Below, one piece after another: positions 7,788-64,000 of a DNA stretch of 64,000 bases. The notes under the pieces were generated by a model. The model saw only the letters and a list, made by a program, of their open reading frames with translations. It did no database searches and was not told the origin of the DNA. Origin of the DNA: Microlunatus phosphovorus NM-1 (lineage in GTDB: Bacteria > Actinomycetota > Actinomycetes > Propionibacteriales > Propionibacteriaceae); NCBI RefSeq assembly GCF_000270245.1, contig NC_015635.1:2108001-2172000 (forward strand), in the 5' to 3' direction. The position numbers and the translations under genes are program-made. Position 1 is the first letter of the stretch, and each line of letters begins with the position of its first letter.

Positions 7788-8239
7788 GACAACCTGTGTC
7801 GCTTCAGCCAGGCGGCGTACTCGGTGGCGCTCATCAACGCCGGCGGGATCTGCGGGTCCTCCTCGTTCTGCGAGCTCTCGTTGATCCCCTGCAAGAGCTC
7901 GAATGCTTTTCCCAGAATGTCTTGCGCCGCTTCGGCCTGCGCGACCTGCCGGCGGAGCCGCTCGTTCTCCACCCGCAACCGGGCCAGCTCGGCCCGCTCG
8001 ACACTGGCCGAGGCACGACCCGGCTTCGACGCCTTGCTCATCGACTCCTCCAGCTCACCTGAATCCCGCGCCCGGATCCACCGCCGCACCGTCGCATGGG
8101 CCAGATCGTTCTCCCGCAACAGCCGCGCTTTCGCGCCCCGCTCACGGCAAGCATCCCACTCCCGTAAGAACTCCAACCGATACGCGATCGAGAACGACCG
8201 CTGCCCCGCCAAGGTCAATCCCGGCTCGACACTGATCAT
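7784..8239 (-). CDS. IS3-family transposase OrfA
   Basis: A 151-residue DNA-binding subunit with an N-terminal helix-turn-helix (YRLEFLREWDACRERGAK, ...HATVRRWIRARDSG) and a leucine-zipper-like segment (RAELARLRVENERLRRQVA) typical of OrfA. The ATG at 8239 has GGAG 7 bases upstream; a GTG 10 codons earlier (8269) is possible but poorly placed. It ends overlapping orfB. Confidence 0.88.
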   Translation of the reverse strand: MISVEPGLTLAGQRSFSIAYRLEFLREWDACRERGAKARLLRENDLAHATVRRWIRARDSGELEESMSKASKPGRASASVERAELARLRVENERLRRQVAQAEAAQDILGKAFELLQGINESSQNEEDPQIPPALMSATEYAAWLKRHRLS

Positions 8240-8312
8240 CAGATACTCCGTTTCCCCCGCCCCAACCACTGCACACCATCTGTCTCATGACCAGGTTGGC
8301 AGGGAGGGTGGG

Positions 8313-8373
8313 CGTAGTGCGCAGTGACTCTAGATGGTGCGAAGTGGGAATTACCCTGGTTGCGCACAAACGA
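8313..8373. repeat. Right half of palindromic interspersed repeat
   Basis: Contains TAGTGCGCAGTGA, then TGGTGCGAAGTGGG followed by AATTACCCTGGTTGCGCAC. The last block recurs almost unchanged at 21482-21515 (AATCACCCTGGCTGCGCAC), and the first blocks are the inverse of the left half at 6688. Confidence 0.65.
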
Positions 8374-8376
8374 CAT

Positions 8377-8419
8377 CGCGGAGTCATGGTTCTCGATGTT
8401 CGAGAACCATGACTCCGCG
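8377..8419. terminator. Perfect 20-bp hairpin downstream of MHS transporter gene
   Basis: Arms CGCGGAGTCATGGTTCTCGA and its exact complement enclose a 3-base loop (TGT). It lies 57 bases past the stop of the minus-strand transporter pseudogene and matches the position of a strong intrinsic terminator. Confidence 0.7.
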
Positions 8420-8475
8420 AGACGTGCAGCACCCTGCGATGGGCGAGGACAACTCCCTAGATCAGGGAGTGGATC

Positions 8476-9794
8476 TCACGCCGGGACCACGGTCGCAGCG
8501 GCGACGGCAGCCTTCTCGCGATCGCTCTGCTTCACCTCGTCGATCTCGTCCAGGGTGTACTTGCGGGTCTCCTTGGCGGTCAGCGCGGCGGTGGCCGAGA
8601 TCGCCATCAACGCGATCGTCAGCATGGCCGGACCGAACCAGCCCAACAGGTCGGGACCCGCCAGCGCGGTCGAGGCGACCGGGCCGACGGCGCCGGCGAT
8701 GGCGAAGCCGATCTGGGTGCCCACCGCGAGTCCGGAGACGCGCACCCGGCTCGGGAACATCTCAGCATAGAACGCCGGCCAGACGCCGTTGGCCGTCGAG
8801 TAGAAGAACCCGTTGCAGATGATGCCCAACAGGAAGATCAGCGTCCAGTTGCCCGTGGTGATCGACCACAGGTAGGGCACGGTCATGATTCCGGCTCCGA
8901 AGACCCCGATCAGGAACGTGGGCTTGCGACCGATCTTGTCCGCCGCGAGCCCCGCCAGGGGAGTCACGCCGAGCGCGAGCGCGCTCGCGATGACCGGGAC
9001 CAGCAGCATGGTCGGCTTGTCCAGCTTGTACCCGTTGGTGGCGAAGGCGACCGAGAAGCTGGCGAAGACATAGCTCGCACCGGCGATCAGCGCGCAGGCT
9101 GCGACCCGGATGATGGCGGGCCAGTGGAACTGGACGGCCTGCTTCAGCGGGGTGATGTTGACCTGGACCTCGGAGTTCTCGATGAACGACGGGGGCTCCT
9201 CCAGCTTGCGCCGGATCAGGTATGCAGCGATCACCACCACGAACGAGAGCCAGAACGGAACCCGCCACGCCCAGCCCAGCAGCACCTCCTCGGGGAGTGC
9301 CGCAAACGGGATGAAGACTGCGGTGGCGAGCAGAGTGCCGGCGGAGGCACCGCTGGTGGTGAAGCTCGTGGTGAAGCTCCGGTGCCGGTCGTTGGAGTGC
9401 TCGAGACTCATGGTGATCGCGCTGCCCTGCTCACCGGAGACACACAACCCCTGGAGGATGCGGATCACGACCAGCAGGATCGGGGCGATCACGCCGACGG
9501 TGTGGAACGTCGGCAGGCAGCCGATCAGGAAGGTGCAGCCACCGATGCCGAACAGCGTCAGCATCATCACGAACTTGCGGCCGAACTTGTCGGCCAGTGG
9601 CCCGAGGATGAGGGCGCCGAGGGGGCGCACCACGTAGCCCACGGCGAGGGTCGCCATGCTGAGCAGCACGCCGACGCCCTGGGGCAGTTCCGGTGGGAAG
9701 AACAGCTTGTTGAGCACCAGCGCCGATGCGGTGCCGTACACGGCGAAGTCGTAGTACTCCAGCGTCGTGCCGACCCAGGAAGCCACCGCTGCCC
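8476..9794 (-). pseudogene. MHS-family MFS transporter, body separated from its 5' end by ISAs1 element
   Basis: Encodes nearly all of a 12-helix metabolite:H+ symporter of the MHS group: SWVGTTLEYYDFAVYGTASALV (start of TM1 plus the family's EYYDF motif), PLADKFGRKFVMMLTL (MFS signature loop), LQGLCVSGEQG in TM4, and AGLAADKIGRKPTF in the second half. The reading frame opens with a GTG at 9786 that in the ancestral gene was an internal Val. The true start and first ~14 codons are on the other side of the insertion (11142-11188). Splicing out the IS and one 10-bp duplication restores an open frame beginning MTSTAMHKKTPARAAVASWV. A truncated product from the internal GTG has no ribosome site of its own, so the gene is probably inactive. 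Confidence 0.9.
9785..9794. repeat. Target site duplication, left copy
   Basis: ACCGCTGCCC directly abuts the left end of the ISAs1 element and is repeated exactly at 11142-11151. Confidence 0.95.
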
Positions 9795-19826: not shown

Positions 19827-21157
19827 GCAGTGCGATGGGCGGGCCGTCCGCCGCGCGGTCGAGGATCGACCTGCTGCTCGACCCGGGCAGCTTCCTGGAG
19901 TTGAACAGGATGGCCCCGGGCCTACCGCCCGGTGACGGCGTGATCGCCGGTTTGGGCACCATCGACGGTCGGCAGGTCTGCGTCTTCAGTCAGGACGGCA
20001 CCGTGGTGGTCGAAGGAGGCCCGGACGAGGTCGCCGTCATGAAGATCGTCAAGCTCATTGATGCGGCGCTGAAGACCGGCTGTCCGCTGATCGGCATCTA
20101 TGACGGCGGCGATGCTCGGATCGGGGCGAGCGTGGTGCCGCTCGGCCCGTACGCCGAGGTCTTCCGTCGCAGTGTCCATGCCTCCGGAGTCATCCCACAG
20201 CTTTCGCTGGTTCTGGGCGAGGTGACCGGTGAGCAAGCCCTCGCACCCGCACTGAGTGATTTCGTGGTGATGGTCGAGCAGGAGTCGCGGCTGTTCGTCA
20301 CCGGACCCGACGTGCTCACGTCCGTCACCGGCGAAGAGGTCTCGAGGGATGAGCTCGGCGGTGGCCGCATGCACGTGACGACGTCGGGCAGTGCGCACTA
20401 CCTCGGCACCGACGAGACCGATGCGATCGGCTACCTGCAGGACTTGCTCTCGTATCTGCCGCAGAACAACCTGGAGGATCCGCCTGTCTATGACGTCGTC
20501 GGTGACCTGGATCTGGGGGAGGAGCCGACCGAGGAGGACCTGGTCCTGGACACGCTGATCCCTGATGCGTCGAACCTGCCGTACGACATGCATGAGGTGT
20601 TCAGCCGGGTGCTGGACGACGGTGAGTTCTGCGAGATCCAGGCGCGCTATGCGCCCAACATCGTGGTCGGCTACGGGAGGATCGACGGCCGCAGTGTTGG
20701 CGTGGTCGCCAACCAGCCGCTGCATTTCGCCGGCTGTCTCGACATCAACGCCGCCGAGAAGGCGGCGCGCTTCATCCGCACCTGCGATGCCTTCAACACA
20801 CCGGTGATCACCTTCGTCGACGTGCCAGGTTTCCTGCCGGGCACCGACCAGGAGCGCGGTGGCATCGTCCGTCGCGGAGCGAAGCTGGCTTACGCCTATG
20901 CCGAGGCGACCGTCCCGCTGGTCACGGTGATCACCCGCAGTGCGTACGGCGGCGCCTACGAAGTCATGGGCTCCAAGCGACTCGGCGCCGACATCACCCT
21001 GGCCTGGCCGACCGCCCAGCGTGCATCCGAACGAGGCTCCGTCGACGGGGTGATCGAGCTGCATGAGACCCGGACCGAGATCGTCCGAGCGCTCCGGCTG
21101 CTGCATACCAAACGTGCGTCCCTGCCACCCAAGAAGCACGGGAACATCCCGCTGTGA
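19823..21157 (+). CDS. Acyl-CoA carboxylase beta subunit (carboxyltransferase)
   Basis: A 444-residue carboxyltransferase with paired crotonase-like halves. Motifs: [57 protein letters not shown], then [71 protein letters not shown] and C-terminal KKHGNIPL as in propionyl/acetyl-CoA carboxylases. It is ~70 residues shorter at the N terminus than typical AccD/PccB; the LysR overlap confirms the start at GTG 19823. It transfers CO2 from biotin to an acyl-CoA; the acceptor cannot be told from sequence. Confidence 0.9.
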
Positions 21158-21390
21158 TCACCATCCTGCGGGGGAACCCGACGCCGGAAGAGCTCGCGGC
21201 CATGCTCACCGTGCTGGCCGCATGCTCGGCTGTGAGTCGGGACTCCGGTCCGGCCTTGGCCACGGCCACGGACCAACAGGAGCGGCCGGCGGCGAGCGCC
21301 GGGACCTCGGGCTGGCTCGATCGATCAGCCGGCCTGCGGGCACCTCTGCGTATTGGACCCGACTCCTGGCGCCGATCAGCCTGGCGCTGA
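21154..21390 (+). CDS. accE: Acyl-CoA carboxylase epsilon subunit-like protein
   Basis: 78 residues starting [23 protein letters not shown], the N-terminal signature of actinobacterial AccE/PccE, and ending ...[11 protein letters not shown]. It stabilises the alpha-beta carboxylase complex. Its GTG start overlaps the beta subunit stop (GTGA). Its presence makes the locus a complete actinobacterial acyl-CoA carboxylase: alpha/BCCP, beta, epsilon, with an embedded LysR. Confidence 0.88.
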
Positions 21391-21418
21391 ACCCGACCTC
21401 CGACCACCCGGCCCCCGA

Positions 21419-21516
21419 CCCCCACTTCGCACCAGCTGCTGCTACTGCGCACCACGTACACCCCATGCGAAGTCGCATCAAATGGTGCGAAGTGGGAATC
21501 ACCCTGGCTGCGCACC
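21419..21516. repeat. Intact palindromic interspersed repeat
   Basis: CCCACTTCGCACCA at the left and its exact inverse TGGTGCGAAGTGGG at the right (14 bp) flank ~48 bases that include CTACTGCGCACCA and an inner ATGCGA/TCGCAT pair. The tail AATCACCCTGGCTGCGCAC is shared with the copy at 8351-8369. It is a MITE- or REP-like element with no gene of its own, lying between accE and the histidine kinase. Confidence 0.75.
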
Positions 21517-21559
21517 CTGCTTGCGGTGTCCTCAGACGACGGGGCGATAGGCTTGCCGA

Positions 21560-23254
21560 ATGCCTGGCCAGCAGCCCGCTGACGGATCCGGTTCGGGCGG
21601 ACCGTCTCTGGTGGAGGACATGCCGCGCCCGGCAGAGGACGGCCTGCTCGCCGAGGATCGGCTGCGGAGTCTGGTCGAGCTGAACAGGTCCATCGTGGCC
21701 GAGCTGTCGCTCGCCGGGGTGTTGCGGCGGATCGTGGACGCCGCGCGGGCCATCGCGCAGGCGCAGTACGCGGCACTTGGGGTGATCGGCGCCGATGGCG
21801 GGCTCGAGCAGTTCGTCCACGTCGGCATGGACGACGAGACAGTGGCAGCGATCGGCCGACTTCCCGAAGGCAAAGGGGTTCTGGGTGCTTTGATCACCGA
21901 TCCCCGTCCGGTGCGAGTCGCTTCGATCGCCGATCATCCGCGTTCGTCCGGCTTCCCGGCGGCGCATCCACCGATGGCCTCCTTCCTGGGCGTGCCGATC
22001 CAGTCCCGCGGCGAGATCTTCGGGAACCTCTATCTCACCAATCGTCTGGGCGCGGCGGAGTTCAGCGCCGAGGACGAGGAGCTCGTCGTCACCATCGCGG
22101 CGACCGCTGGCGTGGCCATCGAGAACGCCCGGCTCTATGAGGAGTCGCGGCGGCAACAGGAATGGCTGCGGGCCTGGGCTGAGGTCACCCGGGACCTGCT
22201 GCAGGGCACCGCGACGACGACCCAGAACCTGACCCGGATCGCCGATGTCGTACGCCGCCTGACGTCGGCCGATGTGGTCAGCGTGGTGTTCCGCGGCGCC
22301 GACCCGGATGTGCTGACGGTTCAGGTCTCGCGCGGTGAGGAAGCCCCTGGACTGCTCGGGATGACCTACCCGGTCGCGGGCTCGCTGGTCGGGGAGGCAT
22401 TCGCCGAGGGCCGAGCCCTGCGCCTGGAGCCCGGCCGCGGTGACTACTACATCCACCTGCAGGAGGCATTCGACGTCGGGCCGGTGCTCGCCTGCCCGCT
22501 GTTTCGTGACGGTCAGACGCAGGCCGCGGTGGTGGTCGGTCGCCGACTGGGGTCGCCGGCGTTCACCGACATCGACCTGCAGGTGGCCGAGGCCTTTGCC
22601 AACCAAGCGGCGGTGGTGTTGGAACTGGCCGATCGACGAGAGAGTCAGCGCCGTCTCGAGGTGTTGGAGGACCGGGCTCGGATCGCCCGCGACCTCCACG
22701 ATCACACGATCCAGCGACTTTGGGCTGCCGGGCTCACCGTGCAGGCTGGGGCGGTCAGGGCCGGTGACCCGGCAGTCCGCGAATCGCTGCAGTCCGCGGT
22801 CGAGAGTCTGGACGCCACCATCCGACAGATCCGCACCACGATCTTCGAGTTGCAGGACTCCAGAGCCGAGAGCGCCTCGCCGCGGTCCCTCCTGATCAAG
22901 GTCGTCGCCGAGGTCGAGCCGGTGTTGGGCTTCGCACCTGATCTCGTCTTCATCGGCCCGCTCGACACCCTGGTCCAGGCAGAGGTCCTCGGCGACGCCG
23001 AGGCGGTGCTTCGGGAAGGCCTGACCAGCATCGCGAAGCACACCGATGCCGATCGGGTCAGTGTCACGGTCGAGGTCTCGGTCCGACACATGGTCATCCA
23101 GATCGTCGACAACGGATCGGTCTCTCCGACCGAGATTCGCGACAATGGACTGGCCTATCTGGAACGACGCGCCAGACGGCGCGGCGGTGCCCTCACCTTC
23201 AGCCACGACGAAGATGGCAGCACGCTGCGCTGGTCGGCGACGCTGGACGCCTGA
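21560..23254 (+). CDS. GAF-domain sensor histidine kinase (DevS/DosT-like layout)
   Basis: A 564-residue soluble kinase: GAF1 at ~45-195 (LRRIVDAARAIAQAQYAALGVIGADG...FLGVPIQSRGEIFGNLYLTN), GAF2 at ~205-355, HisKA_3 dimerisation/phosphoacceptor with His380 in RARIARDLHDHTIQRLWAAG, and an HATPase ending near EIRDNGLAYLERRARRRGG. The order matches mycobacterial DevS/DosT. The HATPase N-box looks weak (GLTSIAKHTDADRV in place of ALxNAxKHAxAxxV), so activity is uncertain. No response regulator is adjacent; the next gene is a universal stress protein, a common DosR-regulon product, which supports redox or gas sensing (inference). ATG 21560. Confidence 0.88.
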   Translation: MPGQQPADGSGSGGPSLVEDMPRPAEDGLLAEDRLRSLVELNRSIVAELSLAGVLRRIVDAARAIAQAQYAALGVIGADGGLEQFVHVGMDDETVAAIGRLPEGKGVLGALITDPRPVRVASIADHPRSSGFPAAHPPMASFLGVPIQSRGEIFGNLYLTNRLGAAEFSAEDEELVVTIAATAGVAIENARLYEESRRQQEWLRAWAEVTRDLLQGTATTTQNLTRIADVVRRLTSADVVSVVFRGADPDVLTVQVSRGEEAPGLLGMTYPVAGSLVGEAFAEGRALRLEPGRGDYYIHLQEAFDVGPVLACPLFRDGQTQAAVVVGRRLGSPAFTDIDLQVAEAFANQAAVVLELADRRESQRRLEVLEDRARIARDLHDHTIQRLWAAGLTVQAGAVRAGDPAVRESLQSAVESLDATIRQIRTTIFELQDSRAESASPRSLLIKVVAEVEPVLGFAPDLVFIGPLDTLVQAEVLGDAEAVLREGLTSIAKHTDADRVSVTVEVSVRHMVIQIVDNGSVSPTEIRDNGLAYLERRARRRGGALTFSHDEDGSTLRWSATLDA

Positions 23255-26500: not shown

Positions 26501-26934
26501 GTGAACTCTCCCAGTCGTTGTGTGCGGTTAGGGCGGATGGGGTTTAGGTGCGGCCGGCGCTTTTGCTGAGCGGCTGTGCGGTCGGCCGTAGTGTGCTGTC
26601 CACGATTCTTGAGGCTGCAAGCGCGAAACACAATCGCACGAATTTGCAGTGAATCATGCAATCCTCTTGCATGGTTGGCGACCAATAGACCTGGTCGACG
26701 GCACCGCGCCCGCACAAGCTGAGGCCTGGTGGCATGGGAACGGCGACAGACGCTTCGGGATGCGTGAGCCCGTACTTGACCCGCCTGGATGAGGGCTTCG
26801 ACCAGAGTCGAAATCTGGTCGCGAGCTTCCCCTTGACGTAGCAGCCGTGACGCCACGTGTCCTCGTACCGTGAGTACGCAGTTCGCCAGTGCACTCGGGA
26901 CGGGCTCGGCGTGAGCAACCATGAGGAGATGTTG
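26501..26934. other. Divergent intergenic region between 2OG oxygenase and GMC oxidoreductase
   Basis: 434 bases with no convincing gene. It contains an imperfect 10-5-10 palindrome at 26652-26676 and must hold both divergent promoters. Its composition is more AT-rich around 26610-26680. Confidence 0.5.
26652..26676. promoter_or_regulatory. Palindromic operator candidate in divergent region
   Basis: Arms AATCATGCAA and TTGCATGGTT (one mismatch) flank TCCTC. It is in the middle of the only divergent promoter region of the LysR/2OG oxygenase/GMC group, in an AT-richer patch. Confidence 0.5.
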
Positions 26935-28572
26935 ATGACAGACTCGTACGACTACATCGTGGTTGGCGCGGGTACGGCGGGCTGCGTCATGGCATCCCGG
27001 CTGAGCGAGGATCCCTCGGTCCGGGTGCTGCTGGTCGAGGCCGGCGGGCAGGACCGGAATCCGATGATCACGATGCCGGGCGGGCTGCCGTTCGTCTACC
27101 AGAACAAGCGGATCGGCTGGGGGATCCAGTCCGGTCCGGAACCTCACGCCGGCGACAAGACGATCGATGAGAAGGCCGGTCGGGTGATCGGTGGCTCGTC
27201 GTCGATCAACGCGATGATCTTCAACCGCGGCAACCCGATGGACTTCGAGCAATGGGCCGAAGACGGCCTCACCGACTGGGACTACGCGCACGTCCTGCCG
27301 TACTTCCGCACGATGGAGACCTTTGCCGAGGGTGGGAACGAGTGGCGGGGGAGCGAGGGCCCGGTGCACGTGACTCGCGCGAGAGCCGCGCATCAGTTCT
27401 ACGACGCTTTCCTGCGGGCCGGTGAACAGGCCGGCTTCCACGTCGCCGCCGACCACAATGCCTATCGGCAAGAAGGTCTGCACATTGCTCAGTCGTTCAT
27501 CGATCAGGGCGTGCGTTGGAGCTCGTCGAAGGCCTACCTGCGGCCCGCGGCGAAGCGCGCGAACCTCACCGTGCTGACCCGTCGGTTGGTCACCTCGATC
27601 ATCGTCCGGGACGGTCGCGCCGGGGGAGTCACCCTGGTCGAGAAGGGCAAGACGCGTACCATCCGGTGCGACCGCGAGGTGGTCATGTGCGCCGGTGCGA
27701 TGCAGACACCGAAGCTGCTGATGCTGTCCGGGATCGGGCCGGCCGACGAGCTGCGGCGGCACGGCATCACGGTGGTGGCCGCCGACGACGGCGTGGGCGC
27801 GAATCTGCAGAACCATCCCGGGGTGGACATCCAGTTCGGCTCCGCGTACGAGGACTCGCTGACCAGCCAGATCGGGCTGCTGAAGCGACCGCGGATGGGC
27901 CTGGAGTACGTGATCAAGAAGCAGGGTCTGGCCACGACCAACTTCTTCGAGACCGGTGCCTTCCTCCGCACCCGCGAAGACGTGACTCATCCGAACATGC
28001 AGTACGAGTTCTTGCCACTCACCCGGCAGTTGCGGCGCGGCAAGCTGGTGCCGGTGCCCGGGTTCCAGTTCTGGATGGACCTGGCCCGACCCTTGAGCCG
28101 CGGTGCCGTCACGCTGCGTTCGGCCAATCCGGCCGACCAACCGTCGGTGGTGTTCAACCACCTGCAGGAACACCAGGATCTGCGTGACCTGGTTGACGGG
28201 GTCAAGCTTGCCCGCGAGCTCGTCCAACAGCCGGCGTGGCAGAAGTACCACCCGGTCCAGCTCACGCCCGGGCCGGACTGCTCAAGCGACGCCGACCTGG
28301 AGGCGTTCGTACGCCGTGCGGTCGGCACGTCGTACCACGCGTCGGGCACCTGCCGGATGGGTTCTGAGGTGGGCTCTGTGGTCGATGAGCACGGCAGGCT
28401 GCGAGCGGTCGGCGGTATCCGGGTTGCCGATGCGTCGATCATGCCGAAGGTGATCACGGGCAATATCAACGCGCCGGTGATGATGATGGCGGAGAAGATC
28501 GCCGACCACGTACGCGGCCGTACGCCACTCCCGCCATCCGCTGCCAGCTTCTACCGGACCCGTCGCAGCTGA
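26935..28572 (+). CDS. GMC-family FAD oxidoreductase (choline-dehydrogenase-like)
   Basis: 545 residues. N-terminal FAD fold YDYIVVGAGTAGCVMASRLSED; GMC signature 1 RVIGGSSSINAMIFNRGNP; signature 2 GAMQTPKLLMLSGIGP; C-terminal active-site His in TSYHASGTCRMG with VADASIMPKVITGNINAP. It oxidises a primary alcohol such as choline or a glycol, passing electrons to a quinone or O2. ATG 26935 has GAGGAG 6 bases upstream. It begins a plus-strand run with the DAO-type oxidoreductase, the DHDPS-family lyase and a DUF5994 gene. Confidence 0.9.
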   Translation: MTDSYDYIVVGAGTAGCVMASRLSEDPSVRVLLVEAGGQDRNPMITMPGGLPFVYQNKRIGWGIQSGPEPHAGDKTIDEKAGRVIGGSSSINAMIFNRGNPMDFEQWAEDGLTDWDYAHVLPYFRTMETFAEGGNEWRGSEGPVHVTRARAAHQFYDAFLRAGEQAGFHVAADHNAYRQEGLHIAQSFIDQGVRWSSSKAYLRPAAKRANLTVLTRRLVTSIIVRDGRAGGVTLVEKGKTRTIRCDREVVMCAGAMQTPKLLMLSGIGPADELRRHGITVVAADDGVGANLQNHPGVDIQFGSAYEDSLTSQIGLLKRPRMGLEYVIKKQGLATTNFFETGAFLRTREDVTHPNMQYEFLPLTRQLRRGKLVPVPGFQFWMDLARPLSRGAVTLRSANPADQPSVVFNHLQEHQDLRDLVDGVKLARELVQQPAWQKYHPVQLTPGPDCSSDADLEAFVRRAVGTSYHASGTCRMGSEVGSVVDEHGRLRAVGGIRVADASIMPKVITGNINAPVMMMAEKIADHVRGRTPLPPSAASFYRTRRS

Positions 28573-28637
28573 CTGCACAGAGGTCCACGAGTGCCGCGAT
28601 CCTCCACCATTTTCGTTACTAGCAAAGGATATTGAAC

Positions 28638-29801
28638 ATGACCACGGTCGTCGTCATCGGCGCCGGAGCGGTCGGCTGTGCCGCCGCATTGCACCTGAAG
28701 ACCGCCGAACCCAGTCTCGACGTGATCGTCGTCGAGCCCGACTACAGCTATGCCAAGGCGGCGACCGGCAAGGGCTCCGGTGGCGTACGCCAGCTCTTCA
28801 CGCGCCCCGAGAACATCCTCATGTCGCAGTACACCCTTGATGTGATCGAGGACTGGCAGGCCTGGGGGACCATCGACGGCACCCCGCCGCCGGAGCTGAG
28901 CTGGCGGCCCAACGGCTATCTGTTCATCGTCGGACCCGCCGACCTGGAGACCCTGGCCGGCAACTACGAGACCCACCTGGCCTGCGGAGTCCAGGCTGAG
29001 TGGCTGGAGCAGGCCGAGCTCATCGCCCGCTATCCCGGGCTGGTCAGCACCGACCTCGCAGCCGGCGTCTTGTCGCCCCGGGACGGCTGGCTCAACCCAA
29101 AGGTCTTCTTCTCCGTGCTCAAGGCCAAAGCCGAGGCGGCGGGGGTCGAATTCCTCACCGACCGCGTCGTCGGGTTCGATCAGACCGGCGCGGTCGTACG
29201 CGCGGTCCAGCTGGCCTCTGGCCGGGTGATCGCGGTCGACTCGGTGGTCAACGCTGCTGGCGTACACGCGCCCGAGCTGGCCGGGCAGCTCGGCATGTCG
29301 ATCCCGGTGGAACCGATGCGTCGGCACGAGCACTACATCGAGACAGAGCACGACGCCAACCACCTGCCGTTCGTCAAGGATGTCGACGGCTTGGCGGTGC
29401 ATGCCTATCGGGACGGTGTCTCGGTCGGCAAGGTCGACTTCGACCACCCCGGTGGCGAGGACTTCACCATCGACGCCAGCGACTACACCGATCGCGTCGT
29501 ACCCGCGATGGCGGACCGGTTCGCCGGTCTGGGTCGGCTCACGCTGCGCGAGTCCTGGACCGGACTGTATGACCAGAACCGGTTCGACGGCAACATGATC
29601 CTCGGCAACTGGCCCGGTCAGCTGGACAACTTCTACGTGGCGTGCGGCTTCTCCGGCCACGGCTTCATGCATGCGCTCGCGATCGGGCGCGGGCTCGCCG
29701 AGCTCATCACCCGAGGCTCCTACCAGACCCTCGACCTGTCCCGGATGGGCTATCAGCGCATCCTCGACGACCAGCCGTACGCCGAAGAGGGGGTCCGCTG
29801 A
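28638..29801 (+). CDS. FAD-dependent amino-acid/amine oxidoreductase (DAO family)
   Basis: 387 residues; FAD fold VVVIGAGAVGCAAALHLK at the N terminus, KGSGGVRQLF and a C-terminal GFSGHGFMHALAIGRGLAELI flavin-contact motif. It resembles the sarcosine oxidase beta/D-hydroxyproline dehydrogenase group. Start ATG 28638 with AAAGGA 8-9 bases upstream (an in-frame TTG two codons earlier is less likely). It probably oxidises a secondary or primary amine to an imine. Its neighbours (alcohol oxidoreductase upstream, DHDPS-type lyase downstream) suggest a short catabolic route. Confidence 0.87.
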   Translation: MTTVVVIGAGAVGCAAALHLKTAEPSLDVIVVEPDYSYAKAATGKGSGGVRQLFTRPENILMSQYTLDVIEDWQAWGTIDGTPPPELSWRPNGYLFIVGPADLETLAGNYETHLACGVQAEWLEQAELIARYPGLVSTDLAAGVLSPRDGWLNPKVFFSVLKAKAEAAGVEFLTDRVVGFDQTGAVVRAVQLASGRVIAVDSVVNAAGVHAPELAGQLGMSIPVEPMRRHEHYIETEHDANHLPFVKDVDGLAVHAYRDGVSVGKVDFDHPGGEDFTIDASDYTDRVVPAMADRFAGLGRLTLRESWTGLYDQNRFDGNMILGNWPGQLDNFYVACGFSGHGFMHALAIGRGLAELITRGSYQTLDLSRMGYQRILDDQPYAEEGVR

Positions 29802-51885: not shown

Positions 51886-52029
51886 GGATGCCCTCCCTCC
51901 GATCGAATGGCGTCAATGGCGTCAATGGTAGCGCGGCTCGCTTCTCAAACGGACCTCGCGCCTACTTCGACGTCAGCGACCACCAACCCCAACGGTGCCG
52001 TCGGTGACGTTCGATGAAAGTCTGTGATC

Positions 52030-53064
52030 ATGACCGACACCATCCCAGCCACCATGCGAGCCAGTGTGCTCACCGGGCAGCGACAGCTTGCCACCTCCGA
52101 GGTGCCCACCCCGTCGTACGCCAGCGACGAGGTGCTGGTCGAAGTGGCTGCCGTGGGCGTGTGCGGGTCCGACACCCACTACTTCCGGCACGGACGGATC
52201 GGTGAGTTCGTCGTCGACGGCCCGCTGATCCTCGGTCACGAGTTGTCCGGCCGGATCGTTGCGGTCGGCGCCGACGTGCCTGAGTCGCGGATCGGGGAGC
52301 GGGTCGCGATCGAGCCGCAGAAGAACTGCCGGCGGTGCCGCGAGTGTCGGGCGGGCCGCTACAACCTGTGCCGGAACATGGAGTTCTTCGCGACCCCGCC
52401 GATCGACGGTGCGTTCGCCCGCTTCTGCGTCATCCGGACCGAGTTCGCGCATCCGATTCCGGACTCCCTCTCCGACGAGGCAGCGGCGTTGTTGGAGCCG
52501 CTGTCGGTGGCGATCACCACGATGCGCAAGGCCAGTATCGTGCCCGGCTCCAGCATCCTGATCGCGGGCGCGGGGCCGATCGGGATCATCTGTGCGCAGA
52601 CGGCGCGGGCATTCGGGGCCGCGGAGATCATCGTCACCGATCTGGTCGCGGAGCGTCGCGAGCGGGCGCTGACGTACGGCGCCACCCGAGTGATCGATCC
52701 GCGGGAGGTCGATATCGCCAGCGCGGGGCTGGACGTCAACGCGTTCGTCGACGCCTCCGGTGCGCCGCGTGCGGTCTTCGACGGGATCAAGGCGGTCCGG
52801 CCGGCGGGTGTCGCGGTCCTGGTGGGACTCGGCTCCTCGGAGATGAACCTGCCGATCGAGCACATCCAGAATCTGGAGATCACGGTGACCGGGATCTTCC
52901 GCTACACCGACACCTGGCCGGCCGCCATCCATCTGGTCGCCAGCGGCCAGGTCGACCTCGATTCGTTGGTGACCGGCCGGTTCGATCTCGACCACGCCGC
53001 CGAGGCCCTGGAAGCCGACCTCGACCCCGACAGCCTCAAGGCGATCGTTTATCCGTGCCGATGA
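52030..53064 (+). CDS. Zinc-dependent alcohol dehydrogenase, sorbitol/L-iditol dehydrogenase type
   Basis: A 344-residue MDR enzyme with both zinc sites: catalytic Cys in VGVCGSDTHYF and His-Glu in LGHELSG; structural zinc Cys cluster in CRRCRECRAGRYNLC. Cofactor fold ILIAGAGPIGIICAQTARAFGAAEIIVTDL (Asp at the end of beta2 favours NAD+). It oxidises a polyol or related secondary alcohol. ATG 52030 is preferred over a GTG two codons earlier. It precedes an MHS transporter and creatinase on the same strand but is separated from them by a 227-base regulatory gap. Confidence 0.9.
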   Translation: MTDTIPATMRASVLTGQRQLATSEVPTPSYASDEVLVEVAAVGVCGSDTHYFRHGRIGEFVVDGPLILGHELSGRIVAVGADVPESRIGERVAIEPQKNCRRCRECRAGRYNLCRNMEFFATPPIDGAFARFCVIRTEFAHPIPDSLSDEAAALLEPLSVAITTMRKASIVPGSSILIAGAGPIGIICAQTARAFGAAEIIVTDLVAERRERALTYGATRVIDPREVDIASAGLDVNAFVDASGAPRAVFDGIKAVRPAGVAVLVGLGSSEMNLPIEHIQNLEITVTGIFRYTDTWPAAIHLVASGQVDLDSLVTGRFDLDHAAEALEADLDPDSLKAIVYPCR

Positions 53065-53083
53065 TGTTGCGCTGAAGGATCTC

Positions 53084-53104
53084 TTGTCGCAACGCTTGCA
53101 ACAA
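53084..53104. promoter_or_regulatory. Inverted repeat operator candidate
   Basis: TTGTCGCAA and TTGCAACAA (one mismatch) flank CGC, directly after the dehydrogenase and ahead of the MHS transporter/creatinase unit. Confidence 0.5.
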
Positions 53105-53225
53105 GAAATCAAGTCTGGTTCCTCGGCGAGTGCTGTCACCGATTCGCTAGCATCCGTGTTGCGCCCCGGTTACACGGTCGTTAAGGTCCGTCGTAGAGGT
53201 TGTGAGGGTATTGACGAGGCGACTC

Positions 53226-53268
53226 GATTGAGAGACTCTCGATCAACACCGTTGCATTCAACGCAACG
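53226..53268. promoter_or_regulatory. Two palindromes upstream of MHS transporter/creatinase
   Basis: GATTGAGAG-A-CTCTCGATC (53226-53244, one mismatch) and CGTTGC-ATTCAAC-GCAACG (53250-53268) lie 24-66 bases before the transporter start. The IclR regulator encoded downstream is the natural candidate to bind one of them. Confidence 0.55.
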
Positions 53269-53291
53269 TCTGACGACAGGACAGCCTGATT

Positions 53292-54629
53292 GTGACCGAA
53301 CCGCTGAACTCAGATCCCAACACGATGCCGGCAGCGCCGACGGCGACGATCGCTCCACCCACCGCCCAGGATCGCCGCAAGGTCATCACCGCCAGCTTCA
53401 TCGGGAACTTCGTCGAGTGGTTCGACTACGCCGCGTACGGCTACCTCGCCGCGACGATCTCCAAGGTGTTCTTCCCGGAGTCGGATCCGACCACCGCACT
53501 GCTGGCCACCTTCGCGGTGTTCGCCATCTCCTTCTTGATCCGGCCGCTCGGCGGGATCATCTGGGGCCGGATCGGCGACCGCGTCGGTCGCCGGACCGCG
53601 CTGTCCTGGTCGATCCTGATCATGTCCGGCGCCACCGTCTGCATCGCGCTGCTGCCGGGCTACGCGTCGATCGGGCTGTTCGCCCCGGTGCTGTTGCTGC
53701 TGGTCCGCGTCGTCCAGGGCTTCTCCGCCTCCGGTGAATACGCCGGTGCGTCGTCCTTCCTGGTCGAGTACGCGCCGCCGAACCGCCGGGGTCTCTACGC
53801 CTCGGTCGTCCCCGCCAGCACGGCCAGCGGCCTGTTGCTCGGCTCACTGCTGGCCGCGCTGCTGACCGGTGTCCTCTCCGACGCCCAGATGCACTCCTGG
53901 GGCTGGCGGCTGCCCTTCCTACTCGCCGCGCCAATGGGCCTGATCGGCCGCTACATCCGGGTCAAGCTCGAGGACACCCCGGTCTTCCGGGCGCTCGAGG
54001 ACAAGGAGCTCCCGCCGGCCCCGCTGGGACAGCTGTTCAAGGAGAACCTGCGACCCCTGCTGATCGCCCTCGGTGCGGCCATCTTGAACGCCGTCGCGTT
54101 CTACGTGCTGCTCAGCTACATGCCCACGTACCTGTCCGAGGAACTGGGCTTCGGTGCCTCGGAGTCCTTCCTGGCGACCACGGTCGCGCTGGTCACCTAC
54201 ATCGGCTGCATCTTCTTCACCGGCATCGCCTCCGATCGATTCGGCCGCAAGCGGATGCTGATCACCGCCTCGGTGCTGTTCATCGTGCTGAGCGTGCCGT
54301 CCTTCCTGCTGCTCGACGGCGCCGGCTTCCTGCTCGTGGTGCTCATCCAGGTGGTGATGGGCGGCGTGCTCACCCTCAACGACGGCACCCTGCCGTCGTT
54401 CTTGTCCGAGCTGTTCCCGACCCGGGTCCGCTACACCGGCTTCGCCTTCAGCTTCAACTTGGCCAATGCGCTGTTCGGCGGCACCGCACCCTTCATCTGC
54501 ACCCTGCTGATCGCCAAGACCGGCAGCCAGGTCGCGCCCGCGTGGTATCTGGTGGCCGCCGCTTTCGTCTCGCTCTGCGCGGTGCTGGCCTCCAGTGAGA
54601 CCTTCCGCAAGCCGCTACGAGATTTCTGA
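53292..54629 (+). CDS. MHS-family MFS transporter next to creatinase
   Basis: A 445-residue 12-helix symporter: ITASFIGNFVEWFDYAAYGYLAATISKVFFP at TM1 (the proline/betaine-type EWFDY motif), GRIGDRVGRRTALSWSI, RVVQGFSASGEYAGASSFLVEYAP in TM4, ELFPTRVRYTGFAFSFNLANALFGG in TM11. GTG 53292 with AGGA upstream. It precedes creatinase by 98 bases on the same strand, so creatine or a similar guanidino compound or betaine is a likely substrate (inference). Confidence 0.9.
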   Translation: MTEPLNSDPNTMPAAPTATIAPPTAQDRRKVITASFIGNFVEWFDYAAYGYLAATISKVFFPESDPTTALLATFAVFAISFLIRPLGGIIWGRIGDRVGRRTALSWSILIMSGATVCIALLPGYASIGLFAPVLLLLVRVVQGFSASGEYAGASSFLVEYAPPNRRGLYASVVPASTASGLLLGSLLAALLTGVLSDAQMHSWGWRLPFLLAAPMGLIGRYIRVKLEDTPVFRALEDKELPPAPLGQLFKENLRPLLIALGAAILNAVAFYVLLSYMPTYLSEELGFGASESFLATTVALVTYIGCIFFTGIASDRFGRKRMLITASVLFIVLSVPSFLLLDGAGFLLVVLIQVVMGGVLTLNDGTLPSFLSELFPTRVRYTGFAFSFNLANALFGGTAPFICTLLIAKTGSQVAPAWYLVAAAFVSLCAVLASSETFRKPLRDF

Positions 54630-54727
54630 TCCACGCCTCTCTGACCAACCCTGCGAATCCAGCTCGCAGGGAGTCCACCACCCTGACCCGCAAAGCGCGG
54701 GTCCTCACCGAAGGAGCAACACACACG

Positions 54728-55948
54728 ATGGACATGGGACGGTTCAAGACCTTCCACAACGGAGACAAGGCCGCCCAGACCTTCTCCGCCGGCGAGATGG
54801 GCCGCCGAATCGCGACCCTGCGCCAACTGATGAGGAGCACCGGCATCGATGCCGTGCTGTTCACCAGCTATCAGAACATCAACTACTACAGCGATTTCCT
54901 CTACACGGCGTTCGGCCGCCCCTACGGGCTGGTGATCACCGCCGACACCCACACGACGATCTCCGCAGGCATCGACGCCGGCCAGCCCTGGCGGCGCAGC
55001 TTCAGTGAGAACGTGGTTTACACCGACTGGCAGCGGGACAACTACGAGTTCACGGTGGCCAGCCTGCTTGCCGAGGCCGGGGTGACCACCGGTCGGCTGG
55101 GTGTCGAGGACGATCAGATCCCGGGCCTGCTTCGGGATCGGGTGGCCGGCGCGGTGCCCGGCCTGGAGCTGGTCGACATCTCGCAGGCCGTGATGCGACA
55201 GCGGATGATCAAGTCACCGGAGGAGATCGCGCTGATCCGCGAGGGCGCTCGGATCGCCGATCTGGGCGGTGAGGCCGTGGCGGCCGCGGTCACCGAGGGG
55301 ATTCCCGAGTACGAGGTGGCGCTGGCCGGCACCCAGGCGATGGTGCGGGAGATCGCTCGGAGCTACCCGGCCGCGGAGCTGCGTGACACGTGGGTGTGGT
55401 TCCAGTCCGGGGTGAACACCGACGGTGCGCACAACTGGGCCACCAGCAGGAAGGTCCAGCAAGGCGACATCTTGTCGTTGAACTGCTTCCCGATGATCGC
55501 CGGCTACTACGTGGCGCTGGAGCGGACCCTGTTCTACGGCGAGCCGAGCCCTGAGGCGCTGCACTACTGGGACGTCAACGTCCGCGTACACGAGCGTGGT
55601 CTGCAACTGATCCGGCCCGGTGCCGTGTGCAGCGAGATCGCCGCCGAGCTGAACGAGATCTACGCAGCCGAGGGTCTGCTGTCCTATCGGACCTTCGGGT
55701 ACGGGCACTCCTTCGGGGTGCTCTGCCACTACTACGGACGCGAGGCCGGGCTGGAGCTGCGCGAGGACATCCACACGGTGCTGGAGCCTGGGATGGTCGT
55801 CTCGATGGAGCCCATGATCACCATCCCGGAGGGGATGCCCGGTGCCGGCGGCTATCGCGAGCACGACATTCTGGTGGTCGGCACCGACGGGGCGGAGAAC
55901 ATCACGAAGTTCCCGTTCGGTGCCGAGCACAACATCCTCGGTCGCTGA
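54728..55948 (+). CDS. Creatinase (creatine amidinohydrolase)
   Basis: A 406-residue M24 pita-bread-fold enzyme that splits creatine into sarcosine and urea. It tracks Pseudomonas creatinase over its whole length: FHNGDKAAQTFSAGEM, FTSYQNINYYSDFLYTAFGRPY, YTDWQRDNYEF, RMRMIKSPEE-type RQRMIKSPEEIALIREGARIAD, WVWFQSGVNTDGAHNWAT (catalytic His235), ILSLNCFPMIAGYYVALERTLF, TFGYGHSFGVLCHYYGREAGLELREDI and GAGGYREHDILVV. The metal ligands of aminopeptidase P are replaced, as expected for metal-independent creatinase. The nearest ribosome site is GAAGGAG 10 bases before ATG 54728. The sarcosine product would join glycine-betaine demethylation. Confidence 0.95.
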   Translation: MDMGRFKTFHNGDKAAQTFSAGEMGRRIATLRQLMRSTGIDAVLFTSYQNINYYSDFLYTAFGRPYGLVITADTHTTISAGIDAGQPWRRSFSENVVYTDWQRDNYEFTVASLLAEAGVTTGRLGVEDDQIPGLLRDRVAGAVPGLELVDISQAVMRQRMIKSPEEIALIREGARIADLGGEAVAAAVTEGIPEYEVALAGTQAMVREIARSYPAAELRDTWVWFQSGVNTDGAHNWATSRKVQQGDILSLNCFPMIAGYYVALERTLFYGEPSPEALHYWDVNVRVHERGLQLIRPGAVCSEIAAELNEIYAAEGLLSYRTFGYGHSFGVLCHYYGREAGLELREDIHTVLEPGMVVSMEPMITIPEGMPGAGGYREHDILVVGTDGAENITKFPFGAEHNILGR

Positions 55949-55989
55949 GCCGGTCGGGTCGGCAAGGTCACAAAGTGGCCTGAGACTGA

Positions 55990-56035
55990 CGTCCGGCGCG
56001 GATCCCTGGGTGAGACCCTGGGTACGCGCCGGACG
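55990..56035. terminator. Terminator hairpin after creatinase
   Basis: CGTCCGGCGC / GCGCCGGACG arms with an inner CCCTGGG/CCCTGGG loop region lie 42 bases past the creatinase stop and before the IclR gene. Confidence 0.65.
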
Positions 56036-56151
56036 ATCTGATCAGGAGAACGACCATTTCCGCCAGCACCGACAGCGACAACACCGACGGCCCCGACCTC
56101 GACGGCCCTGATACCGACAGCAGGGCCCCCGACGGCCGGGCCGGGACCTCA

Positions 56152-56910
56152 GTGCTGTTGAACGGCCTGAAAGTGTTGGAGACGTTCACGATCGAGGAGC
56201 CGCTGCTCGGCGTGACCGAGATCGCGGGCCGCGTCGGCATGCACAAGTCCAGCGTCTCCCGCATCCTGGCACTGCTCGAGCAGGGGCACTACGTCGAGCG
56301 GGACAGCAGCAGCGGACGCTTCCAACTCGGCCTCGGGGTGATCGGTCTCGCGGGCCCACTGCTGGCCGATTTGGACGTACGCCGGGCCGCTCATCCCGCG
56401 TTGGAGAGGCTCAGCCGTTGCACCGGCGAGACGTCGGCGCTCATGGTGTGGAACGGTCTGGGCGCGGTCGTCGTCGAGCAGGTGGCCAGCACACACAACG
56501 TCAAGCACACGGCCGCGATCGGCACCCGCTACGAGTCGCCGGCCAACGCGTCGGTGCAGGTGTTCCTCGCCGCTCAGCCGGCGGCCGAGCGGCGGGCCCT
56601 GTTCGACCGTCTGATGCTCGCGTCCGGTGCATCAGACCCGGACGCGTGGAAGAGCTATCGAGCAGCGATCGAGGACGTGCACGGCAAGGGTTTCGCCATC
56701 AATGATGGGCGGACGTCGGCCGAGGAGGTCGGTATCGCCGCACCGATCCACGACCACCGGGGCGAGACCGTCGGTGTGGTCCTGTTGTCGGCTCCTCGGT
56801 TCCGGGTCCAGCAGCAGCTGCTCGACCCGCTGGCCCGCAATGTGGTCGACTCCGCCCGTGAGATCGACGAGCGACTCGGCTATCGGCGGAGCGGTCAGCG
56901 CGGCCACTGA
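56152..56910 (+). CDS. IclR-family transcriptional regulator
   Basis: 252 residues from the GTG at 56152: winged HTH (VLETFTIEEPLLGVTEIAGRVGMHKSSVSRILALLEQGHYVERD) and IclR effector domain (LSRCTGETSALMVWNGLGAVVVEQVAS ... GFAINDGRTSAEEVGIAAPIHDHRGETVGVVLLSAPRFRV). An in-frame ATT at 56056 behind GGAG could add 32 Asp/Gly-rich residues, as longer relatives have; the true start is unsettled. It follows the MHS transporter and creatinase and likely represses or activates them via the palindromes at 53.1-53.3 kb. Confidence 0.88.
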   Translation: MLLNGLKVLETFTIEEPLLGVTEIAGRVGMHKSSVSRILALLEQGHYVERDSSSGRFQLGLGVIGLAGPLLADLDVRRAAHPALERLSRCTGETSALMVWNGLGAVVVEQVASTHNVKHTAAIGTRYESPANASVQVFLAAQPAAERRALFDRLMLASGASDPDAWKSYRAAIEDVHGKGFAINDGRTSAEEVGIAAPIHDHRGETVGVVLLSAPRFRVQQQLLDPLARNVVDSAREIDERLGYRRSGQRGH

Positions 56911-62031: not shown

Positions 62032-62067
62032 CGGGCTCACCGACCCCCCGGTGAGAAGGAGTGTGTG

Positions 62068-63366
62068 ATGGCGCGCATCTTGGACACGGCTCGAGACCGC
62101 GGTCCTGTCGAGGAAGACAGCACAGCACCGTTGGAGCCGATGCCGTTGGGCTTGGACATCGAGGCGCGCCGGGCAGAGATCGACGAGCGAAAGCTCGGTC
62201 TGGACCGGCTGGCCAAGCTGCGCGCCGAGTTGGCGAAGTTCGACTACGCCGCCGCTCTGCTGTCGGATCCGATCAATATCAGGTACGCGACGGGCTCGCG
62301 GAACATGGCGGTCTGGACGATGCACGCCCCCGGGCGGTATGTCTTCGTCCCGGTCGATGGACCGGTGGTGCTCTTCGAGTACGGCACGCCGGTGCAGATG
62401 GAGGCGCAGGGCGTCTTCAACCTGGCGACGGTCGACGAGGTACGCCCAGCGAGGCCCTGGTTCTTCTTCGACTCCGGTCCTCGGGTCGCGGAGAAGGTGC
62501 AGTGGTGGGCCACCGAGGTCATCTCCTTGATGCGCCAGCACAGCGGTGGCAACAACCGGCTCGCCGTGGACCGCTGCGAACCCTGGGGCGCGCAGTTGCT
62601 CATCGATGCCGGGTTCCGGCTGTTCGACGCCCAGGCACCGATGGAGCTGGGGCGTGCCGTCAAGACGTCCGAGGAGCTGAAGTGCCTGCAGCTCTCGGTG
62701 GATGTCGCCGACATCGGCATCAGCCGGATGCGTCGGGCGCTGCGGCCGGGGATCACCGAGAACCAGCTGTACGCGATCCTGCACGAGACCAACGTCGCGC
62801 ACGACGGGGAGTGGGTCGAGTGCAAGCTGCTCACCTCCGGGGAGCGGACCAACCCGTGGTTCCAGGAGTGCAGCAACCGCGTCATCCAACCCGGCGACAT
62901 CGTGGCGTTTGACACCGACATGGTGGGTCCGTACGGGTATCTCGCCGACCTGTCCCGAAGCTGGGTGTGTCCCGGCCGCAAGCCCACCGCGGAGCAGCGT
63001 CGGCTCTACGAGATCGCCCAGGAGCAGGTGCTGTTCAACATGGACCTGCTCAAGCCCGGACTGTCCTTCCAGGAGTTCGCCGACCGTTGCTGGCACATCC
63101 CGGAGGAGTTCATTCCCAACCGCTACGCCATGACGCTCCACGGTTCGGGGATGGTCGATGAGTATCCGAACCTCGCTCACGTCGTCGACTGGGAGGCGAA
63201 GGGCTACGACGGCATCTTCGAGGAGAACATGGTGCTGAGCGTCGAGAGCTACATCGGCGAGGTGGGCGGCAAGGAAGGCGTCAAGCTCGAGCAGCAGGTG
63301 CGGATCACCGCGACCGGCGCCGAGTTGATGTCCTCCGAGCCCTTCGTCGACGCCCTGGAGATCTAA
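62068..63366 (+). CDS. M24-fold enzyme resembling DMSP lyase DddP
   Basis: 432 residues. The C-terminal pita-bread domain carries a full set of metal ligands: Asp282 and Asp284 (FDTDMVGPYG), Asp294 (LADLSRSW), His358 (TLHGSGMVDEYP), Glu393 (SVESYIGE) and Glu408 (KLEQQVRI). As I recall the roseobacter DddP numbering (D295, D297, D307, H371, E406, E421, catalytic D377), every position is offset by exactly 13, and Asp364 aligns with the catalytic Asp. N-terminal LLSDPINIRYATGSRNMAVWTMHAP and GEWVECKLLTSGERTNPWFQEC also follow DddP. It would cleave DMSP to dimethylsulfide and acrylate; a different betaine-like or peptide substrate is possible. AAGGAG lies 8-9 bases before ATG 62068. Confidence 0.78.
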   Translation: MARILDTARDRGPVEEDSTAPLEPMPLGLDIEARRAEIDERKLGLDRLAKLRAELAKFDYAAALLSDPINIRYATGSRNMAVWTMHAPGRYVFVPVDGPVVLFEYGTPVQMEAQGVFNLATVDEVRPARPWFFFDSGPRVAEKVQWWATEVISLMRQHSGGNNRLAVDRCEPWGAQLLIDAGFRLFDAQAPMELGRAVKTSEELKCLQLSVDVADIGISRMRRALRPGITENQLYAILHETNVAHDGEWVECKLLTSGERTNPWFQECSNRVIQPGDIVAFDTDMVGPYGYLADLSRSWVCPGRKPTAEQRRLYEIAQEQVLFNMDLLKPGLSFQEFADRCWHIPEEFIPNRYAMTLHGSGMVDEYPNLAHVVDWEAKGYDGIFEENMVLSVESYIGEVGGKEGVKLEQQVRITATGAELMSSEPFVDALEI

Positions 63367-63432: not shown

Positions 63433-64000
63433 TCAGTTTCCGACGGCAGCTTGGGCAACCAGACCGAGGTGGTCGCGTCCGCCGCCGAAGTGGTTGGCCA
63501 GACGCTTGATGTACCAGCTGACGAAATCGTTGACGTCGTCCTCGATCGTCGCGTACGGCCCGGGCACGTAGGCCGGATCGGTTGCGCCGCGTTGCGCCAA
63601 CTCCACGAAACGGCGGTCCTCGGTGTTGGTCGCCTCCCACACCTCGGTGAGGGTCGGGATGTCATAGTCGACACCCTCGACGGCATCGGGGTGGACGAGC
63701 CAGGTGGTGCGCACGATCGTCTTGTCCGGCGCCACCGGGAGTGCCCGGAACACCACCGCGTGGTCGCTGCAGAAGTGGAACCACGAGTTGGGCTGGTAGT
63801 GCAACGACATGTCACCGAAAGCCGGGTCGACGATGTCGCCGATCAGCTTCTTGCAGATCTGCTTGCCGTCCCAGCCGAAGGAGGCGCCGTCGCCGTCGAG
63901 TGGGAAGTGGGTGATCCTGAACCCGGTGGCCCGGTTGTCGAGCTCGCGGTAGGTCCGCTGTGGGATGCCGGCTGCGGCCCCAGTGATCGCGAGGCGATCC
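63433..64000 (-). CDS. gbcA: Rieske oxygenase large subunit, glycine-betaine-monooxygenase type, C-terminal part (5' end beyond window)
   Basis: Only the C-terminal ~188 residues are inside the window; the frame is open to base 64000 and the Rieske and most of the iron domain lie beyond. Visible sequence (GFRITHFPLDGDGASFGWDG, SLHYQPNSWFHFCSDHAVVFRALPVAP, TTWLVHPDAVEGVDYDIPTLTEVWEATN, DRRFVELAQRGATDPAYVPGPYATIEDDVNDFVSWYIKRL) follows GbcA-type enzymes, which demethylate glycine betaine to dimethylglycine releasing formaldehyde. Related carnitine or stachydrine oxygenases cannot be excluded. It converges on the DddP-like gene. Confidence 0.8.
   Translation of the reverse strand, partial: DRLAITGAAAGIPQRTYRELDNRATGFRITHFPLDGDGASFGWDGKQICKKLIGDIVDPAFGDMSLHYQPNSWFHFCSDHAVVFRALPVAPDKTIVRTTWLVHPDAVEGVDYDIPTLTEVWEATNTEDRRFVELAQRGATDPAYVPGPYATIEDDVNDFVSWYIKRLANHFGGGRDHLGLVAQAAVGN

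Follow-up and report, generated by a model that had tools for sequence, protein, structure and literature searches.

Does a protein that keeps the metal ligands and the catalytic residues of DddP also share its activity, the cleavage of DMSP? The question is raised by a gene close to the right-hand end of the window, the whole stretch of 64,000 bases analysed in this report (positions 2108001-2172000 in a genome that consists of one contig of 5,683,123 bases). Judged by its sequence, the encoded protein is a rarity: it belongs to a sister clade of DddP-like enzymes and has kept its DddP-type centre intact.

Gene and predicted structure

The open reading frame begins with ATG at 62068 and ends with the stop codon TAA at 63364-63366 (Table 1). 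A search of the own genome with the protein returned only the protein itself at E ≤ 0.001. An Rfam scan of the window gave no match.

Table 1. Positions of the DddP-like gene and the adjoining features in the window.
Feature	Position	Strand	Remark
Shine-Dalgarno-like AGAAGGAG	62054..62061	+	read in the sequence; 6 bases 5' of the ATG
DddP-like M24 enzyme, 432 aa	62068..63366	+	Creatinase_N and Peptidase_M24 domains
Inverted repeat with 18-base arms (94% complementary) and a 4-base loop	63386..63425	.	between the convergent genes
Rieske oxygenase alpha subunit, 3' part	63433..64000	-	convergent; cut by the window edge

The closest solved relatives found by phmmer are the DddP structures 4rzy, 4s01, 4s00 and 4b28, the last from R. 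denitrificans (E 1.2e-78 to 2.4e-76), and the best prolidase match has an E value of 5.2e-11. The similarity to DddP is thus well above what chance would give. An AlphaFold (AF2) model has a pLDDT of 84 and a pTM of 0.85, with values below 50 for residues 1-21 and 81-83, W83 among them. The predicted structure is closest to DddP (TM 0.87 to 4s01 and 4rzy, 0.86 to 4b28), and the other M24 structures listed have TM values of 0.60-0.72.

Active site in comparison with DddP

In the alignment to R. lacuscaerulensis DddP (4rzy, 36% identity), residues D282, D284, D294, H358, E393, E408 and D364 of the window protein correspond to D295, D297, D307, H371, E406, E421 and D377, which are the six metal ligands and the base Asp. 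Y353 aligns to Y366, and W83, H86, R90 and E251 (W95, H98, R102 and E264 in DddP) are likewise kept, as is R260. The offset of 13 is unbroken across window residues 230-430. The correspondences of the six ligands and the base are as given in the first-pass annotation. Its statement that there are no indels holds for this catalytic half and has to be restricted to it, because the N-terminal domain shows an offset of 12 over residues 50-113 and of 8 over residues 118-229.

For the purpose of this analysis, a DddP-like M24 superfamily was defined by the M24 fold together with D297, Y366 and TNPW, the equivalents of which are all present in the window protein. Among 43 superfamily members outside the window and DddP clades, D297, H371 and E406 are kept in 43, Y366 in 42, D307 and E421 in 37 and D377 in 32. 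A constant spacing of the metal residues was considered as an identifier of DMSP lyases and was rejected, as paralogues other than DddP have the same residues. The active-site residues therefore do not name DMSP lyases. The textbook residues alone are insufficient to infer DMS production, and the earlier suggestion that the kept residues point to DMSP finds no support.

The window clade differs from DddP by fixed changes at sites that are invariant in the 17 rows of the DddP clade. Among them are D88→G, A103→Y, R258→H, G315→P and C376→V, the last of which adjoins the catalytic base. In addition, R78 is present in the window clade where the DddP rows have T, S or P at position 90.

Two plasmid-borne relatives have unusual active sites. 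The DddP-like protein of S. meliloti pSymA (L143, 14878-16182) has Gly at the base Asp377 and Tyr and Arg at W95 and H98; judged by these residues, it may use another mechanism or may be inactive as a lyase. The dddP of a Paracoccus yeei plasmid (L189, 9812-11161; 75% identical to 4rzy) has Arg aligned to W95; either a misalignment or a genuine substitution in a protein named DddP may be behind this. A literature search for a paper naming Trp95 in DddP found none.

Comparison with prolidases and other M24 enzymes

The M24B prolidases and aminopeptidase P resemble the window protein in their fold (M24) and in five of its six metal ligands. They differ in the catalytic histidines, whose positions are taken by DddP-type residues in the window protein. 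The prolidase motifs PHH and (V/S/T/G)HE are absent, and the window protein holds WFQ and D364-E365. A comparison set of prolidase-type M24 proteins was drawn from 15 genomes of the same order, one per genome. All 15 differ from the window protein at four DddP-type places, with Gly for D284, Ile for Y353, His for D364 and Pro-His-His for W264-F265-Q266. For R. lacuscaerulensis DddP (RlDddP), PMC5395565 gives the activity towards valine-proline as not measurable. The centre of the window protein is thus of the DddP type and probably not that of a peptidase; on these residues, the chemistry is probably DddP-like as well. A plain peptidase was considered and is disfavoured, both catalytic histidine positions being occupied by DddP-type residues.

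Creatinase and ectoine hydrolase DoeA employ the M24 fold on small zwitterionic substrates. The fold is what they have in common with the window protein. The match to the ectoine hydrolase model is weak (32 bits, cut-off 575), as is that to creatinase 7yto (E 6e-5), and the structures of these enzymes fit the window protein model far more poorly than DddP does.

A second M24 gene (creatinase/PepQ/DoeA-like) is present in the window at 54728-55948. It is preceded by a zinc alcohol dehydrogenase gene (52024-53064) and a ProP-like metabolite/H+ symporter gene (53292-54629) and followed by an IclR regulator gene. The region 52024-56910 looks like a separate cluster for the catabolism of small zwitterions.

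Phylogenetic placement and distribution

For the alignment, open reading frames shorter than 370 aa or scoring below 60 bits were dropped, as were the duplicates L001, L047 and L062. The careful tree comprises 69 rows, seven of the 76 rows (outgroup, long branches) having been removed; the 43 other superfamily members compared above still include three of the removed rows. In this tree, the DddP clade has 17 rows (support 100/99) and is nested in a clade of 25 rows (100/99). It consists of 4rzy, eight rows above 600 bits and eight at 509-592 bits with the DddP model. The fungal FgDddP and AoDddP lie outside the sampling, and the tested clade is thus the bacterial DddP clade holding 4rzy.

The window protein belongs to a separate clade of 12 rows (100/100) outside the DddP clade. 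The other members are 60-68% identical to it (approximate values) and come from Prosthecomicrobium, Hyphomicrobiales, Acidisphaera and other alphaproteobacterial MAGs as well as from Acidimicrobiia and other actinobacterial MAGs. A joint clade of the window and DddP groups is rejected (AU p 0.0039); the groups for the AU tests were chosen with a first tree already at hand. Forcing the window protein alone into the DddP clade gives p 3e-9, a constraint that also breaks the window clade. A larger quick tree of 91 rows, from which 14 of the 76 earlier rows were left out and to which 29 were added, agrees (window clade 16 rows, SH-aLRT 100; DddP clade 19 rows, 99). A position outside the DddP clade is the very outcome that the first-pass annotation had named as speaking against its own proposal.

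The score of the window protein with the DddP model (NCBIfam NF043017) is 331 bits, below the equivalog cut-off of 600. Scores of 316-477 bits were obtained for seven relatives that are encoded near Rieske, MttB or FAD-GcvT genes, and six of the seven exceed the window protein. One Pelagibius genome (G461) encodes, besides a DddP over the cut-off (628 bits), four further members with scores of 399, 308, 305 and 213 bits.

At E ≤ 1e-60, the window protein has matches in 1 of 296 genomes of its own class, and this one is the source genome itself. This rarity within the class agrees with the earlier remark that DMSP cleavage by DddP is known mainly from roseobacters and some fungi. The 19 other genomes of the same genus contain one match above 100 bits, which is partial and 40% identical (G005). 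At the same threshold, matches are present in 49/297 genomes of the order of Prosthecomicrobium, only four of them at 67-68% identity (centre genome included), and in 18/247 genomes of the class of an Acidimicrobiia MAG (centre included). The gene was likely gained horizontally by the source genome. With the DddP model, none of 396 genomes from the same phylum exceeds the cut-off, the highest score being 447 bits; in a sample of an alphaproteobacterial class, 7/289 genomes do (centre included).

Two records deserve separate mention. A MAG named Bifidobacterium breve (L009) holds a member of the window clade and shares neighbouring genes with an actinobacterial MAG (L008) that is its sister in the tree; the species name looks wrong. 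A Cellvibrionales MAG (L015) holds a full DddP-like gene (7974-9221) and, about 6 kb upstream, a partial copy of 260 aa with the same N-terminus (1017-1799).

Gene neighbourhood of the window protein

The inverted repeat downstream of the gene is a probable two-way terminator. Since the two genes are convergent with this repeat between them, the DddP-like gene and the Rieske gene are probably not co-transcribed. The full Rieske reading frame extends beyond the window to about 64791 and encodes 452 aa, the start codon being provisional. No reductase gene was seen beside it. Its closest solved structures are 4qup and 3vca (E 4e-110), the latter of which we take to be the stachydrine demethylase Stc2 of S. 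meliloti. The protein contains CxH...CxxH and E223-C-x-x-C227, a Cys pair next to the bridging Glu; this second motif lies beyond or near the window edge and was read in the full reading frame. In the description of Group V quaternary-ammonium Rieske oxygenases, the Cys pair and the bridging Glu are given for CntA and the Cys pair also for Stc2 (PMC10952381). The same signature is present in five of seven other Rieske proteins encoded near DddP-like genes. The own Rieske protein is 41-53% identical to these five; the two proteins without the signature are 98% alike. With the GbcA model, the own Rieske protein scores 434 bits at an equivalog cut-off of 670, and a second Rieske copy elsewhere in the genome scores 427 bits, also below it. 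The earlier description of the neighbour as a convergent Rieske oxygenase of the betaine type is supported by this signature; the score stays below the GbcA cut-off.

Methylcitrate genes lie 3.5-7.2 kb past the 3' end of the DddP-like gene, beyond the Rieske gene (scores/cut-offs in bits: prpC 593/479, prpB 395/354, PrpD-like 865/950), and are followed by a sulfate ABC transporter. These genes would suit acrylate or propionate as a product, whether derived from DMSP or from a betaine. In the own genome, no MttB was found, and none of 18 matches to an AcuI-type reductase is over the cut-off (best 86/297 bits). The genome has one match to a BCCT transporter, located about 34 kb away.

About 33 kb from the DddP-like gene, the window contains a choline dehydrogenase-like GMC oxidoreductase gene (647 bits, subfamily cut-off 605) followed by an FAD-dependent amine oxidase-like gene (26857-29801).

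Gene neighbourhoods of relatives

For the relatives, flanks of roughly 9 kb to either side were probed; they are shorter where a contig ends and longer for four plasmid loci. Genes for the demethylation of quaternary ammonium compounds (MttB-type methyltransferase, Rieske oxygenase or FAD-GcvT oxidoreductase) are found near 19/35 relatives outside the DddP, nearest-to-DddP and window groups, and near 8/13 loci of the groups nearest to DddP. For the DddP clade the count is 2/17 (0/8 for loci over the model cut-off); the two loci, with a Rieske or FAD-GcvT gene, are both under the cut-off. Compared with the DddP loci, Fisher p values are 0.006 (19/35) and 0.007 (8/13). Near copies are kept in these counts (L013/L144, L142/L143, and L131-L133 with L135 and L136); with near copies collapsed, the values become 17/33 (p 0.007) and 4/9 (p 0.14). 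In the window clade, such a gene is found near 1/14 loci, the window alone, and the context does not differ from that of the DddP loci (p 1.0). Contig ends cut many loci, 8/14 in the window clade and 3/17 in the DddP clade being under 11 kb, and all these counts are therefore lower bounds.

Group membership follows the quick tree for L140 (DddP clade) and for L131, L132, L133, L135, L136 and L139 (groups nearest to DddP). L020, whose gene is broken, was left unplaced, and the window-clade loci L124 and L126, which duplicate L003 and L004, were excluded. The plasmid loci L143-L146 were chosen before their context had been seen, from 25 of 179 plasmid records listed; these four were used as probes too, and their flanks are longer. 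Five further loci stand outside the counts. L147 (S. meliloti) has MttB and FAD-GcvT, and L187 and L188 have Rieske genes; Caballeronia NK8 (L186) and the P. yeei plasmid dddP (L189) are without Rieske, MttB or FAD-GcvT.

Among 16 hand-picked Hyphomicrobiales loci, 10 have MttB nearby versus 0.41 expected from the gene numbers per genome under assumed random placement. A betaine-homocysteine methyltransferase gene (566 bits, cut-off 338) occurs near 9/48 loci outside the DddP and window clades. Annotated plasmids point the same way. On S. meliloti pSymA, genes for an FAD oxidoreductase, MttB, the DddP-like protein and a glycine betaine ABC transporter are found together. Parasedimentitalea combines an FAD oxidoreductase, the DddP-like gene, MttB and sarcosine oxidase, Pseudomonas MPC6 a Rieske gene, dehydrogenases and BCCT transporters, and Caballeronia grimmiae a Rieske gene and an NAD(P)-dependent oxidoreductase. 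Two Rhizobium plasmids have the gene order Rieske-reductase-DddP-like, with gfa and fghA (formaldehyde) in the region; one of them has a glycine betaine ABC transporter too. In L187, L188 and L138, a reductase gene lies between the DddP-like gene and a Rieske gene on the same strand. In the literature collection searched, no paper treats DddP together with Rieske oxygenases, and a search for DddP together with MttB found a single genome note.

The relatives from rhizobia, Caballeronia, Pseudomonas, Pseudarthrobacter and Parasedimentitalea, named as "Xaa-Pro peptidase family" proteins, are 43-50% identical to the window protein. Of nine that were compared, eight have kept the metal ligands, the Tyr and the base Asp, and seven have a Rieske gene nearby. 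The S. meliloti pSymA copy, at an MttB locus, has Gly at the base. These relatives belong, however, to other clades than the window protein. On a Rhizobium Ti-type plasmid (L188), a separate and much shorter "dimethylsulfoniopropionate lyase" gene (21154-21744) is located beside electron transfer flavoprotein genes.

The recurrent neighbour within the window clade is a dipeptide/nickel-type ABC transporter. Its binding protein is present in 4/14 window-clade loci from two lineages versus 0/16 DddP loci (Fisher p 0.037, the loci being non-independent; L007/L019 and L008/L009 are near copies). In two Prosthecomicrobium-like orthologues the adjacent gene encodes an M29 or M50 peptidase, and genes of the regulator and efflux types lie near one; an M29 metalloprotease gene lies just before one orthologue (L123). 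Hydantoinase A and B genes are near an alphaproteobacterial orthologue (L012).

Possible function

On balance, the best explanation is that the window protein, from its separate, strongly supported DddP-like clade, probably performs DddP-type chemistry on a small betaine-like zwitterion, with a quaternary ammonium compound or a demethylation product likelier than DMSP. According to published descriptions, two metals in DddP are held by six residues and the substrate carboxylate is metal-bound, Asp377 takes the proton, and a Trp and a Tyr are located at the sulfur (PMC4108388, PMC5395565). The sulfur-side Trp would be W95, equivalent to W83 of the window protein. The window protein would work as a homodimer. 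D364 would act as the base at its two-metal centre, which has six ligands, and Y353, W83 and R90 would shape the pocket, W83 and R90 probably reaching in from the partner chain. With the carboxylate bound to the metal, abstraction of the α-proton would be followed by loss of an onium leaving group. The residues, the predicted fold, the position in the tree and the gene context of relatives are observed; from them we infer this dimer, the pocket roles and the lyase chemistry, as well as the substrate class and any link to a Rieske demethylase.

The betaine-type substrate is favoured from the context of relatives more than from that of the window clade itself. Counting against it are the single window-clade locus in 14 with such a neighbour, the dipeptide/nickel-type transporter and the M29 gene found by orthologues instead, the lack of an own MttB, the convergent orientation of the Rieske gene with the inverted repeat in between and no reductase gene beside it, and the two DddP-clade loci that have a Rieske or FAD-GcvT gene. 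A broader reading, which appears rather doubtful, makes the sister families with DddP-like sequences, and with them the window protein, the nitrogen equivalents of DMSP lyase: M24 enzymes with two metals that would cleave betaine C-N bonds by β-elimination beside Rieske or MttB demethylases, with DddP as an offshoot of a betaine-lyase family, adapted to sulfur. An example of such a reaction would be the conversion of β-alanine betaine to trimethylamine and acrylate; a literature search for alanine betaine with trimethylamine and acrylate found no paper.

The window protein might instead be a working lyase for DMSP (or DMSOP). It would then be a deep-branching DddP whose products are DMS and acrylate, and the acrylate would feed the nearby methylcitrate genes. 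The complete set of DddP metal and catalytic residues with W83, the sulfate transporter that follows the methylcitrate genes and the distant BCCT match would be in line with this. Fungal FgDddP, which is only 32% identical to RdDddP, is reported to be active (PMC4108388), and actinobacteria that cleave DMSP without known ddd genes are described in PMC6309047. These two precedents, the first from outside the tree sampling, lend DMSP cleavage some probability. It is nevertheless unlikely: the position outside the DddP clade, the low model score, the clade-fixed changes at DddP-invariant sites (C376→V beside the base and D88→G among them), the lack of an AcuI-type reductase over the cut-off and the absence of any phylum genome above the DddP cut-off all stand against it. 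Still less credence is given to a dipeptidase or aminopeptidase P-like hydrolase acting on peptides delivered by the dipeptide-type transporter near some orthologues. The M24 fold, the binding-protein counts and the M29 gene beside L123 would suit such an enzyme. The DddP-like D284 and Y353, the replacement of His by D364 and of Pro-His-His by Trp-Phe-Gln, and the result with valine-proline for RlDddP argue against it; moreover, the same transporter type adjoins MttB or FAD-GcvT in L127, L130, L137, L169, L170 and L173.

How DddP came to cleave DMSP becomes directly testable through a sister family that shares its active site and has some of its relatives on plasmids of S. meliloti and Rhizobium. 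In surveys, dddP is counted by similarity. At 36% identity, the window protein would escape such counts. Four relatives near Rieske, MttB or FAD-GcvT genes (L017, L013, L145 and L144) are 41.5-42.5% identical to R. lacuscaerulensis DddP over 366-379 residues, and some dddP counts may therefore include enzymes of other function.
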